Shown one piece after another: positions 1,426-5,562 of a stretch of 36,004 nt of DNA. Positions within the stretch are counted from its first letter, which is position 1, and each line of letters opens with the position of its first letter. Location of the stretch: positions 1 through 36,004 of the forward strand of contig JALRGX010000018.1 in NCBI GenBank assembly GCA_023259635.1, read 5' to 3'. The position numbers and the translations under genes are program-made. Under the pieces are notes generated by a model. The model saw nothing but the letters and a program-made list of their open reading frames with translations. It did not search any database and was not told where the DNA came from. The stretch comes from Methylotenera sp. Lineage in GTDB: Bacteria; Pseudomonadota; Gammaproteobacteria; Burkholderiales; Methylophilaceae.

Positions 1426-2562
1426 CTATGCATGGATATCAAATTGATTTGCATAAGCGTCAGGATTACTGCCATTCCAGACCGTGCCGTCGATTAATTT
1501 GCTAGCTCGCATTGGGGATTCTGGAATCGAAATATCCATTGCGTTTGCAGCGTCCTGATAAAGGTCAATACGATTTACTTTCCGGGAAATGGCAAGATAA
1601 TCAGGCGCCACATTTAACAGGCCCCAGCGCTTGAACTGTGTCAAGAACCACATGGCATCAGAAAGATAAGGAAAATTTACTTTTCCTTCATCGAAGAACT
1701 TAATCGCATTGGCATCTTGCCACTGGCTGCCGTTACCGTTGTCGTATTGGCCTACGAAACGGTCATGAATGACTTGCTCCGGTGCATTCACATAATCTTT
1801 ACCTGACAACAGTGTTGTAACTGCAGAGCGATTTACCATCACATCCAGATAGCGGCAGGATTCCAGTGTTGCCATGATCATTGCGCGACAAGTGTCTGGG
1901 TAGCAGGCTGCAAACTCTGCTGTAACTCCCAGTACTTTCTCCGGGTGATCTGCCCAAATATCCTGACTGGTAGCGACCGTAAATCCTACATTGTCATAAA
2001 CTGCACGCGCATTCCATGGTTCGCCTGCACAATATCCGGCTACATTTCCGACGCTGATATTCGAAACCATTTGAGGTGGTGGCACGACCGTGGTTTTGAT
2101 GTCTTGTAAAGGGTTTATGCCATGACTAGCCAGCCAGTAATACAACCACATCGCATGCGTTCCGGTTGGAAAGGTTTGTGCAAAAGTGAGTTTTGAAGAA
2201 TGCTGTTTAACGAACTGACTGAGTTCAGTGCCGTTAATGATGCCTAAGGTTTTTAACTGGTTAGATAAAGTGATGCCTTGGCCATTCTGGTTCAGCGTCA
2301 TCAAGACTGACATTTCTTTTTGCTGCCCGCCGATTCCAAGCTCAACCCCATAGATCATGCTGTAAAGTGCGTGCGATGCATGCAGGTCACCACTGATTAA
2401 CTTATCGCGAACTGCAGCCCACGAAGCTTCCTTATTAAGATTAATCTTGATGCCGTATTTCTGGTCGAACCCCAGGTAAGAGGCGATCACTAACGGAGCG
2501 CAATCCGTAAGTGCTATAAATCCTATATTTACTGCCTCAAGTTCTGGCTTAAATAGATACAT
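1426..2562 (-). CDS. nasS: NrtA/NasS-family nitrate-binding protein without signal peptide; probable cytoplasmic nitrate sensor NasS
   Basis: MYLFKPELEAVNIGFIALTDCAPLVIASYLGFDQKYGIKINLNKEASWAAVRDKL is typical of NrtA/CmpA/NasS; no signal peptide or lipobox from the likely start at 2562 (preceded by GATTGAGGTTAGTGAA). Adjacent to nasT. The ORF track start at 2631 would run through the leader RNA. Confidence 0.8.
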   Translation of the reverse strand: MYLFKPELEAVNIGFIALTDCAPLVIASYLGFDQKYGIKINLNKEASWAAVRDKLISGDLHASHALYSMIYGVELGIGGQQKEMSVLMTLNQNGQGITLSNQLKTLGIINGTELSQFVKQHSSKLTFAQTFPTGTHAMWLYYWLASHGINPLQDIKTTVVPPPQMVSNISVGNVAGYCAGEPWNARAVYDNVGFTVATSQDIWADHPEKVLGVTAEFAACYPDTCRAMIMATLESCRYLDVMVNRSAVTTLLSGKDYVNAPEQVIHDRFVGQYDNGNGSQWQDANAIKFFDEGKVNFPYLSDAMWFLTQFKRWGLLNVAPDYLAISRKVNRIDLYQDAANAMDISIPESPMRASKLIDGTVWNGSNPDAYANQFDIHA

Positions 2563-2580: not shown

Positions 2581-2641
2581 TAAAAAACAAAAAAGGCGTC
2601 CCTGCAGCCGGTTAAAAAATAACCATCGCAAGGACGCCTTT
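2581..2641 (-). terminator. Intrinsic terminator (attenuator) in the nasS leader
   Basis: Minus strand: AAAGGCGTCC (2641-2632) pairs perfectly with GGACGCCTTT (2601-2592), with internal hairpin GGTTA-TTTTT-TAACC, followed by TTTTGTTTTTTA. Confidence 0.9.
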
Positions 2642-2650
2642 GTCCGATGG
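2623..2650 (-). promoter_or_regulatory. ANTAR-substrate hairpin P2 (antiterminator), hexaloop AAAGGC
   Basis: Minus strand 5'-CCATC GGAC [AAAGGC] GTCC TTGC GATGG-3': hexaloop with A1 and G4. The loop plus 3' inner stem (AAAGGCGTCC) is exactly the 5' arm of the terminator. Confidence 0.8.
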
Positions 2651-2679
2651 GCAATAAATTGCCCTTAACTCTTATATAA

Positions 2680-2709
2680 CGCTATTAATTCCTCATTGAA
2701 TCAATAGCG
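2680..2709 (-). promoter_or_regulatory. ANTAR-substrate hairpin P1, hexaloop AATGAG
   Basis: Minus strand 5'-CGCTATTGATTC [AATGAG] GAATTAATAGCG-3': 12-pair stem including one G-U, hexaloop with A1 and G4. Confidence 0.85.
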
Positions 2710-2728: not shown

Positions 2729-3304
2729 TTAAACTGGCTTCGTTGCCATTTCTATTACATCTTTTGCCAAATCTGCAATACGTTTGTTTTGACGCATTGC
2801 TATGCTACGTAACATTGCATATGCATGATCCTCATCAAAACCATGCTCTTTCATTAGCAAACCCTTGGCTTTTTCAAGCACTTTACGCTCGGCTAATTTA
2901 ACCTTGGTTTGACCAAGCTCATCTCTTAACAGCTTAACTTCTTCAAATCTTATAACCGCCGCATTAATAACCGGTGTCAGGCTCTCGCTTGGCAAGCTGC
3001 CAACTACATAAGCAGAAACACCAGCTTTGATTGCTTCACGCATTTTTTTTATATCGCCATCATGCGTAAACATCACAATCGGTTTTGGTACATTCTGGTT
3101 CATTACACACAGGTTCTCCAAAGTGTCGCGACTTGGAGAGTCTGTATCAATAATCACAATGTCTGGTCTCAATTCACAAACTGCATCATCAAGGTTGGCG
3201 GTACTGTTTAAATGTGCAATTACCTGATATCCAGCTTCAATTAATAATTGCTTTAATGGAGCAACCCTCAACCAATCATCATCTACCAACATTACAGAGA
3301 GCAT
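2729..3304 (-). CDS. nasT: NasT-like response regulator: REC domain plus C-terminal ANTAR RNA-binding domain
   Basis: MLSVMLVDDDWLRVAPLKQLLIEAGY... with IIDTDSP receiver motif and ERKVLEKAKGLLMKEHGFDEDHAYAMLRSIAMRQNKRIADLAKDVIEMA ANTAR signature. Likely start 3304 (ORF track start 3355). Confidence 0.88.
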   Translation of the reverse strand: MLSVMLVDDDWLRVAPLKQLLIEAGYQVIAHLNSTANLDDAVCELRPDIVIIDTDSPSRDTLENLCVMNQNVPKPIVMFTHDGDIKKMREAIKAGVSAYVVGSLPSESLTPVINAAVIRFEEVKLLRDELGQTKVKLAERKVLEKAKGLLMKEHGFDEDHAYAMLRSIAMRQNKRIADLAKDVIEMATKPV

Positions 3305-3466
3305 GTGTAACCCAAACAAAGCATTTTTATTGATATCAAGCAACATGTATGCCAACGTTAACTTTAAATCATAACCATATGAAATATAATGAAAAGTTAA
3401 TAATATTAATGATCGGGTGATGATTTGGTGTAATTTTCCGATGCACTATTGATGTGCAATTGCACC

Positions 3467-3633
3467 TAAATAAACTGAAGAAAACATGGAATAAGTGCCT
3501 ACGCAAACAAATTGCAGCGTTGCAAGGTGTTCGCAACTTCGCTATATACCGCAACTATTCCGGCTCCAGCGTTCCGTTCGCTTGGTGCTTTATCTCGCTC
3601 GACGACTTATTCCATGTTTCCTTAACTTATTTA
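3467..3633. repeat. Inverted-repeat element with structured interior (MITE-like or ncRNA-like)
   Basis: Left arm TAAATAAACTGAAGAAAACATGGAATAAGT (3467-3496) versus right arm reverse complement TAAATAAGTTAAGGAAACATGGAATAAGT (3605-3633); 15-bp perfect core AAACATGGAATAAGT; internal hairpins GTTGC...GCAAC and CCAGCG...CGCTTGG. Confidence 0.6.
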
Positions 3634-3990: not shown

Positions 3991-5562
3991 ATGGATGCGA
4001 TAATGATTACTAGTAAATATTTACTGGAACAGACCGGACTTTCCCGTGCTACTTTAAATAACTACATTAGCTTAGGATTATTACCTAAGCCTGTGGTTAA
4101 ACGTATCGCAGCTGAGCCTGGAGCCAGGCTTACAACTTTGGGGTATTTCCCGGATTGGGTATTGAGCCGTATTCAACTGATTCAATCCTTAAAAAAACAA
4201 GGGTTGACTATGAATGCTATCAGCCAGCAAATATCATCAGAGAATAACGCTCTGCCCCTCTTGAATGAAGAACTGTCAGAAAAATACAGCGTATATGCAG
4301 TTGATACTTCAACGGATCATAAAAAGTCATCCTTAGAAAAGGAGCGTGATATGTCCTTGAATAACCCTCCCACAAAGATTCATTCACAAGAATCTCTAAA
4401 CGTGTCAATTGATAGCATTCCCTACCCTGCATATATGATTAATTATGAATGCGGGCTGGTATGGCTAAATACCGCAGCTCAGCAATCCTTATTCACAGGT
4501 GCAGTTATCCCGGACCGTGCGGAAGATCGATCCATTATTCAGAAGTTACTTGAATGGGCTGGAAATTTAGATGCTACTGACAAAGAACTGTTATTTAAAT
4601 CACATTTTAATGTTGTAAAGCATCGGTTATCTAAAGACACGCTATCCAGAACCATTCTATCTTTGCCGCTGGAAGAAAGGCAATGGCTGGAAAACTGTTA
4701 CGACCAATCAGATCCGCCTGAAAATACATTAATACAGGATACAACGCTGCATCATTGGACTAATGTTAATAAACGTATTATTTCCATTAGCTTTAGAGAG
4801 GGTGTACTTTTCACTTATGCTCCCCAGAGTGCAGATTCTAATCAATTGCTTGAATGGTTATCACATCGCGACTCGGTAATTCGAACACTTCTTAGCCAGC
4901 GACTTCCGGTTCTGACGCCAGTGGTTGCTATGGTTGCTGATTTGCAGAATTCTGTCCGTATCTGTTCAGAGCTTCCACCAGATGAATATTTTCAATTAAT
5001 CAATGAAGTTTGGTCTGCACTTGATCCAGTTTTCAGGGAATACTATGGAGCATATGGGAAGCATACCGGTGATGGTATGGTCTATTATTTCTTTCCGCAG
5101 CCCGATAGCAACTACATCATGAATGCGGTTTTATGTGCGTGCAGGATTCGCGAGTGCATGAAAGTGATTAGCCATAAGTGGGCACTTAAAAAGGGATGGA
5201 CCAATCAGTTGTTTATGAACATAGGCCTTAATGAAGGAGAGGAATGGCTGGGCACATTTAAAACCAATACCAGCTATGAACTTGTCGTTTTAGGGGAAAC
5301 AATTAATATTTGCAGCAGACTTTCTGATTTTGCCAAGTATGGTGAAATTTGGGCCACTAAGAACTTGGTAAGTAAGCTAAATCATTCAGAACGGGACTTG
5401 TTGGACTATGGCGTTACGCGCAAAACATTAGACCAGGATGTCTTTGTTTCAAATAGCTATGCCCAGATATCCACGTTGATTGATAAAGATAATTTGAAGC
5501 ATATGAAGCTGATAGATATTTCAAGTGCAGCCGTAACCCAAATACGCGCCATTAAACAATAA
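3991..5562 (+). CDS. MerR-type HTH N-terminus + PAS-like region + class III adenylate/guanylate cyclase domain
   Basis: N-term MITSKYLLEQTGLSRATLNNYISLGLLPKP...LTTLGYFPDWVLSRIQLIQSLKKQGLTMNAI (MerR-like HTH); middle SIPYPAYMINYECGLVWLNTAAQ (PAS-like); C-term VAMVADLQNSVRI, GKHTGDGMVYYF, LVVLGETINICSRL (class III cyclase motifs). Confidence 0.75.
   Translation: MDAIMITSKYLLEQTGLSRATLNNYISLGLLPKPVVKRIAAEPGARLTTLGYFPDWVLSRIQLIQSLKKQGLTMNAISQQISSENNALPLLNEELSEKYSVYAVDTSTDHKKSSLEKERDMSLNNPPTKIHSQESLNVSIDSIPYPAYMINYECGLVWLNTAAQQSLFTGAVIPDRAEDRSIIQKLLEWAGNLDATDKELLFKSHFNVVKHRLSKDTLSRTILSLPLEERQWLENCYDQSDPPENTLIQDTTLHHWTNVNKRIISISFREGVLFTYAPQSADSNQLLEWLSHRDSVIRTLLSQRLPVLTPVVAMVADLQNSVRICSELPPDEYFQLINEVWSALDPVFREYYGAYGKHTGDGMVYYFFPQPDSNYIMNAVLCACRIRECMKVISHKWALKKGWTNQLFMNIGLNEGEEWLGTFKTNTSYELVVLGETINICSRLSDFAKYGEIWATKNLVSKLNHSERDLLDYGVTRKTLDQDVFVSNSYAQISTLIDKDNLKHMKLIDISSAAVTQIRAIKQ

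Follow-up and report, generated by a model that had tools for sequence, protein, structure and literature searches.

Does the structured region between nasT and nasS of Methylotenera sp. encode an RNA target of the ANTAR protein NasT, and what would a switch accomplish when placed between the gene of an activator and that of its inhibitor? The region lies in a stretch of 36,004 nucleotides (assembly GCA_023259635.1, contig JALRGX010000018.1), referred to hereafter as the window. Leaders of this type have been described upstream of nasA, nirBD and nos genes; in Paracoccus, nitrate dissociates the NasS-NasT complex and NasT binds the nasA leader RNA (PMC3795266), and in Pseudomonas the nirBD leader, NalA, is transcribed by sigma-54 and stands under NasT control (review PMC12830290).

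The loop model of the ANTAR protein EutV was revised in 2022, and the NasT leader family bears on the same question. EutV contacts the loops successively, with G at position 4 (G4) as the only base-specific contact, and binds isolated hexaloops with similar affinity, the minimal motif being redefined as one hexaloop (PMC8934654). On the other hand, termination at a dual motif is prevented only when both of its hexaloops are contacted, and 20 additional nucleotides in the linker between the loops abolished antitermination in vitro (PMC8934654). A preliminary description of the window had claimed a complete dual-hexaloop switch between nasT and nasS, comprising two hairpins, P1 and P2, each with A at position 1 and G at position 4 of the loop (A1/G4), and a terminator incompatible with P2. 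Sequence comparison identifies the element as a NasT (ANTAR) antitermination leader, kin of NalA (Rfam P11): a real, conserved representative of a known kind, unusually placed and with partly decayed signals.

Architecture and predicted folding of the leader

The sequences quoted in the preliminary description were all found where it had placed them, on the minus strand between nasT and nasS (Table 1). P1, here called the distal hairpin, displays a stem of 12 bp, the outer C-G pair included, and resembles the distal loop ATTC[AATGGC]GAAT of canonical relatives (L010, L179-L181). Dinucleotide shuffling of the upstream region, repeated 20,000 times, never produced an A1/G4 hexaloop hairpin as strong as P1, and a weaker A1/G4 hairpin of some kind appeared in 3.7% of the shuffles. 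The P2 hairpin sequence occurs once in the genome at up to one mismatch. As had been described, the AAAGGC loop and the 3' stem of P2 are contained in the 5' arm of the terminator, so that the two structures exclude each other; the terminator arms pair perfectly, and the predicted hairpin extends beyond them.

Between P1 and P2 the fold places a further hairpin, missed in the preliminary description, which may alternatively pair as 6 bp around a UUUA loop. This near hairpin occupies the place of the near hexaloop of the relatives, and its loop ATTTAT has lost G4. The outer P2 stem CCATC/GATGG, proposed in the preliminary description, is not borne out: it competes for bases with the near hairpin and is absent from the structure predicted before the 3' arm of the terminator is present, and no counterpart was seen by eye in the sequences of the relatives.

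Table 1. Features of the nasT-nasS locus, in window coordinates
Feature	Position	Strand	Sequence or evidence
sigma-54 promoter-like site, upstream of nasT	3339..3354	-	TGGCATACATGTTGCT; pattern scan
nasT (receiver domain and ANTAR domain)	2729..3304	-	Pfam Response_reg 2.8e-11, ANTAR 2e-18
Distal hexaloop hairpin (P1)	2709..2680	-	CGCTATTGATTC[AATGAG]GAATTAATAGCG; A1/G4 loop 2697..2692
Leader as matched by covariance model R1	2591..2669	-	56.2 bits, E 2.2e-11 over the genome
Near hairpin	2664..2649	-	GGGCA[ATTTAT]TGCCC (GGGCAATTTATTGCCC); fold
P2 hairpin	2645..2632	-	GGAC[AAAGGC]GTCC, A1/G4 hexaloop; conserved 4-bp core
Intrinsic terminator	2588..2645	-	arms AAAGGCGTCC (2641..2632) and GGACGCCTTT (2601..2592) with inner stem, then U tract
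nasS (nitrate-binding-protein homologue without signal peptide)	1426..2562	-	NMT1_2 2.4e-93; NrtA 2g29 1.5e-79
Porin gene, 5' part (alginate-export-like), broken by contig junction	507..1397	-	

For 2581-2712 the predicted folding energy is -57.2 kcal/mol (z = -8.1; 0 of 200 shuffles as stable), and the minimum-energy structure contains the distal hairpin, the near hairpin and the terminator; P2 forms in the predicted structure once the 3' arm of the terminator is omitted. The full fold reaches -61.8 kcal/mol versus -44.7 kcal/mol with P2 forced. At equilibrium the P2 form is thus about 17 kcal/mol less stable than the terminator, and NasT would therefore have to act kinetically; in this folding model, the terminator is the default state and P2 has to be trapped during transcription.

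The EutV dual-hexaloop and Klebsiella NasR/nasF leaders share with this leader the A1/G4 hexaloops and the overlap of P2 with the terminator (PMC3369931, PMC8934654), but they answer to other sensor modules and carry two close-set loops with strict spacing. The gap between P1 and P2, which contains the near hairpin, measures 34-40 nt according to where the P1 stem is taken to end. Judged by EutV, which reads G4 and does not tolerate 20 additional nucleotides, this pair is not a textbook dual hexaloop. From the claim of a complete dual hexaloop, P2 and an upstream A1/G4 loop (AATGAG) survive, whereas P1 corresponds only to the distal loop and the near loop is devoid of G4.

A family of leaders downstream of nasT

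Leaders of relatives, located by their position after nasT and not by the P2 sequence, have in common GGAC[AAAGGC]GTCC, or close variants, and a terminator; the P2 sequence is identical in 31/31 aligned leaders. An upstream A1/G4 hexaloop hairpin was found in 24 of 26 family leaders, compared with 1.1 in shuffles, and the A1/G4 class accounts for 36 of the 53 upstream hexaloop hairpins in the family, the next loop class numbering 4. In addition, 91 of 104 other nas leaders display an upstream A1/G4 hexaloop (3.4 in shuffles); these were picked by the exact P2/terminator pattern and therefore test the upstream loops, not P2. The upstream A1/G4 loops are closed by 17 different stems, a figure that informs on the variety of the stems and not on the constancy of the loop, the hairpins being preselected for A1/G4. 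Loop-class counts against shuffles were used because the MAFFT alignments (A1, A2) placed the near hairpin out of register, both between Pseudomonas and Methylophilaceae and within the close set, and were left out of pair counting.

One or two A1/G4 hexaloops, a near and a distal one, usually lie upstream of P2 in related leaders. Both are present in the majority of canonical leaders of the genus in which P2 was located, the near loop at a gap of 8-18 nt and the distal loop at about 49-72 nt, and such leaders thus comprise three A1/G4 loops, P2 included. No description of three-loop ANTAR leaders was found in the part of the literature covered, which counts as weak evidence. As members with one, two and three A1/G4 loops occur naturally in the family, the loop number and spacing that an ANTAR protein needs become directly testable.

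A covariance model (R1), built from nine other leaders of the NasT family, none with nasS downstream, retrieves the window leader as the single match in its genome (Table 1). In four further genomes the number of matches equals the number of nasS/nrtA loci, amounting to one leader per locus in five genomes, the window's included; neither R1 nor the P2 sequence at up to one mismatch disclosed a second leader in the window's genome. At Rfam gathering scores the window is without a match, and a permissive search returned P11 (RF00625; 27.9 bits, E 7.8e-4) beside other matches that look like chance. Lying below the P11 gathering score of 70, the leader is related to P11 and is not to be filed as P11. 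Rfam P11 is in all likelihood NalA, judging by the scores of the P11 model on Pseudomonas nirB leaders (131.7 and 110.9 bits). NalA and the window leader have in common the GGAC[AAAGGC]GTCC and terminator module and, probably, sigma-54/NtrC control and NasT. In NalA, 2-4 nt separate a near A1/G4 hexaloop from P2, a distal AACGNN loop is often present as well, and the leader precedes nirBD, whereas the window leader lies between nasT and nasS and its near loop is without G4.

Closer relatives are the nasT-leader-nrtA loci of Methylophilaceae, with the leader right after nasT, a P2/terminator module, a sigma-54 site before nasT and usually a distal A1/G4 loop. They differ in that the first gene encodes a Tat-signal NrtA, accompanied by its transporter, in place of the cytoplasmic NasS of the window, and in that many keep both the near and the distal A1/G4 loops.

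The regulator genes and the operon

The ANTAR regulator that had been noted beside the leader is a NasT with mostly preserved RNA-contact residues. It matches the EutV structures 6wsh/6ww6 (E 2.2e-26) and is the single ANTAR match in the genome; mapped by hand on the EutV alignment, 9 of 11 RNA-contact positions are as in EutV, including (EutV numbering) R142, K143, K147, K149, E160, Y164, R168, M172 and R177, with N173 and R175 altered. Of the 30 loci covered by the pattern scan (L002-L031, window included), 28 have a sigma-54-like site upstream of the NasT match, usually at a distance of 30-67 nt.

The product of the downstream gene, which adjoins nasT, is a CmpA/NrtA homologue devoid of a signal peptide. 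The other Methylophilaceae binding proteins examined carry a Tat signal, except those of its own small clade. Its tree placement with Pseudomonas NasS (support 96/96), rather than with periplasmic NrtA, agrees with the absent signal peptide in supporting the NasS identity proposed earlier; the branches are long, so that long-branch effects are possible and "nasS" is a fair name held with some doubt. The alternative that the protein is an NrtA which merely lost its signal is disfavoured by the same tree. As side observations, most Methylophilaceae examined encode only one NrtA/NasS-like protein with a Tat signal beside nasT, and a cytoplasmic NasS was not found in most of them.

The preliminary description had anticipated further genes downstream, and a nitrate operon is indeed there. 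Window bases 507-606 are a 100-bp identical overlap with the end of another contig, C47 (C44/C47 join), which carries, in order, the rest of the porin, cobA, nirB, narK, a phosphatase/kinase gene, nirD and nasA; through this overlap the operon nasT-nasS extends as porin-cobA-nirB-narK-kinase-nirD-nasA. No continuation of the porin lies in the first 506 bases of the window: read by eye, the porin frame enters a GGDEF-like C-terminus and a peptide-binding-protein-like fragment, and this segment is probably a chimeric contig tail.

Upstream of nasT, a MITE-like repeat of 143 bp with terminal inverted repeats (3478-3620) has three further near-full and many partial copies in the genome and is also present in G006 and G068. 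Beyond it lies a divergent gene (3991-5562) encoding a guanylate-cyclase-type domain with a weak MerR-like N-terminus.

Loss of upstream loops in nasT-leader-nasS loci

A survey of the genus found a binding protein in 29 of 52 genomes, of nasS type in four: that of the window (G000), G006, G068 and G084, the last with a leader that reads the same as the Methylotenera sp. AG31 leader (L149). G006 and G084 each hold two nitrate-binding-protein loci, one of nasS type and one of Tat-NrtA type, each with its own leader.

All four nasT-leader-nasS loci retain the P2/terminator module and display a near hairpin shortly before P2, the loop of which is ATTTAT (window), TGGGTA, CGCATG or ATAAAG, in no case A1/G4. 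A distal A1/G4 loop occurs in the window only, and in the other three no upstream A1/G4 hexaloop of any kind was detected. The conservation in relatives on which the preliminary description had staked its claim holds for P2/terminator and for the A1/G4 loops of the family at large, and partly fails in the other three nasT-leader-nasS loci, where the pair of A1/G4 loops is not conserved. The four loci form one clade, so these departures may amount to one event. Given the wide spacing and the loop decay, a response of the window leader to NasT appears likely, not certain.

Proposed mechanism and alternative explanations

We consider a NasT-dependent transcription attenuator within one sigma-54 operon to be the probable function of the leader. 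Under nitrogen limitation, nasT would be transcribed from the sigma-54 promoter and the polymerase would reach the leader; in the absence of free NasT, the terminator would form and most transcripts would end before nasS. Upon nitrate binding by NasS, NasT would be set free and could load onto the nascent RNA at the distal AATGAG loop, a possible loading site, and then hold the P2 loop AAAGGC, the putative essential element, long enough to block the terminator. Read-through would yield nasS-porin-cobA-nirB-narK-kinase-nirD-nasA. The anatomy of the leader, its conservation, the gene order of the operon and the NasS type come from the present comparisons; the binding of NasT to this leader and the role of each loop are what we infer by analogy, and the nitrate-driven release of NasT and the control it exerts would carry over from Paracoccus and Pseudomonas.

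Because nasS stands behind the switch, NasT probably raises its own inhibitor, which would make the circuit self-limiting through negative feedback; a switch between the two genes predicts self-limiting nitrate induction. Paracoccus denitrificans shares the nitrate-released NasS-NasT complex and the NasT-bound leader RNA (PMC3795266, PMC5424462), but in that species nasT and nasS share a transcript and the leader lies between nasS and nasA, so that NasS is not behind the switch. Tentatively, the attenuator of the Methylotenera-like clade could be seen as a feedback device by which NasT antiterminates NasS, its target shrunk towards P2 alone and the near hairpin preserving a shape without the signal. 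With a similar leader-nasS-nasT arrangement in Pseudomonas, such feedback through nasS may have more than one origin.

A variant compatible with NasT control, possible if somewhat unlikely, is that NasT needs P2 only, the distal hairpin being a leftover and the near hairpin a spacer in a lineage whose target has gone from several loops to one. No A1/G4 loop other than P2 is retained in all four nasT-leader-nasS loci, and the EutV minimal motif is one hexaloop with similar affinity for each; yet the same study requires contact to each hexaloop of a dual motif (PMC8934654), and the distal hairpin of the window is stronger than any in the 20,000 shuffles and resembles the canonical distal loop.

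The disappearance of the near loop from four of four and of the distal loop from three of four of these loci, with the terminator staying, would also suit a decayed control in which the leader is a NasT-independent partial terminator setting the nasT:nasS ratio. We regard this as unlikely: GGAC[AAAGGC]GTCC is unaltered in all four, though the arm of a plain terminator would be free to change together with its partner, as in relatives L011 and L018, and the RNA-contact residues of the NasT ANTAR domain are kept.

Less probable still is a sponge, in which nasT mRNA stopped at the terminator, with the distal A1/G4 hairpin at its end, would mainly titrate free NasT, in analogy to the single-hexaloop sponge role suggested for EutX in Enterococcus (PMC8934654). 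The terminated transcript would contain nasT and the distal hairpin, but the terminator locks up P2 in that transcript, the distal A1/G4 loop is missing in three of the four related loci, and the searches of the genome yielded no second leader as its target. An ordinary intergenic terminator after nasT, with nasS read from its own promoter and coincidental ANTAR features, accounts for the strong terminator and is very improbable in view of the covariance-model match, the one leader per locus and the family-wide A1/G4 excess.

Related leaders in Pseudomonas and other bacteria

The P11 "sRNA" coincides with the nirB leader at L040, L043, L061 and L087, and its 5' part looks more like a sigma-54 promoter than like RNA. 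The Rfam narK RNA (RF03032) of Pseudomonas comprises ggtaacc[AACGGC]ggttgcc, cgac[AAAGAC]gtcg and an overlapping terminator, with two A1/G4 loops (L040:3146-3215, L087:2150-2218 and other narK upstream regions), and is, at the level of pattern, likely a NasT leader. Both Rfam families of Pseudomonas appear to be NasT leaders, which would make the "sRNA" and the motif parts of one regulon. In most Pseudomonas loci examined (L040:1215-1303 and others), the nasS-nasT operon comes immediately after a NasT-type leader that has a sigma-54-like site, and a GAC[ANNGGC]GTC hairpin with a terminator lies before nasS, again at pattern level, in most loci readable there.

In Christensenellaceae, Spirochaetales and other Bacillota (L047, L086, L097, L131, L159, L091, L095), the P2/terminator sequence of the nas leaders lies close to what look like transcript starts, and an upstream hexaloop was not found at these loci; by eye, some of these Bacillota/Spirochaetales modules precede CTP synthase or glutamine-amidotransferase-like genes. 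In Nitrospira (L138, L081), two tandem P2/terminator modules precede a NasS/NrtA-like gene.
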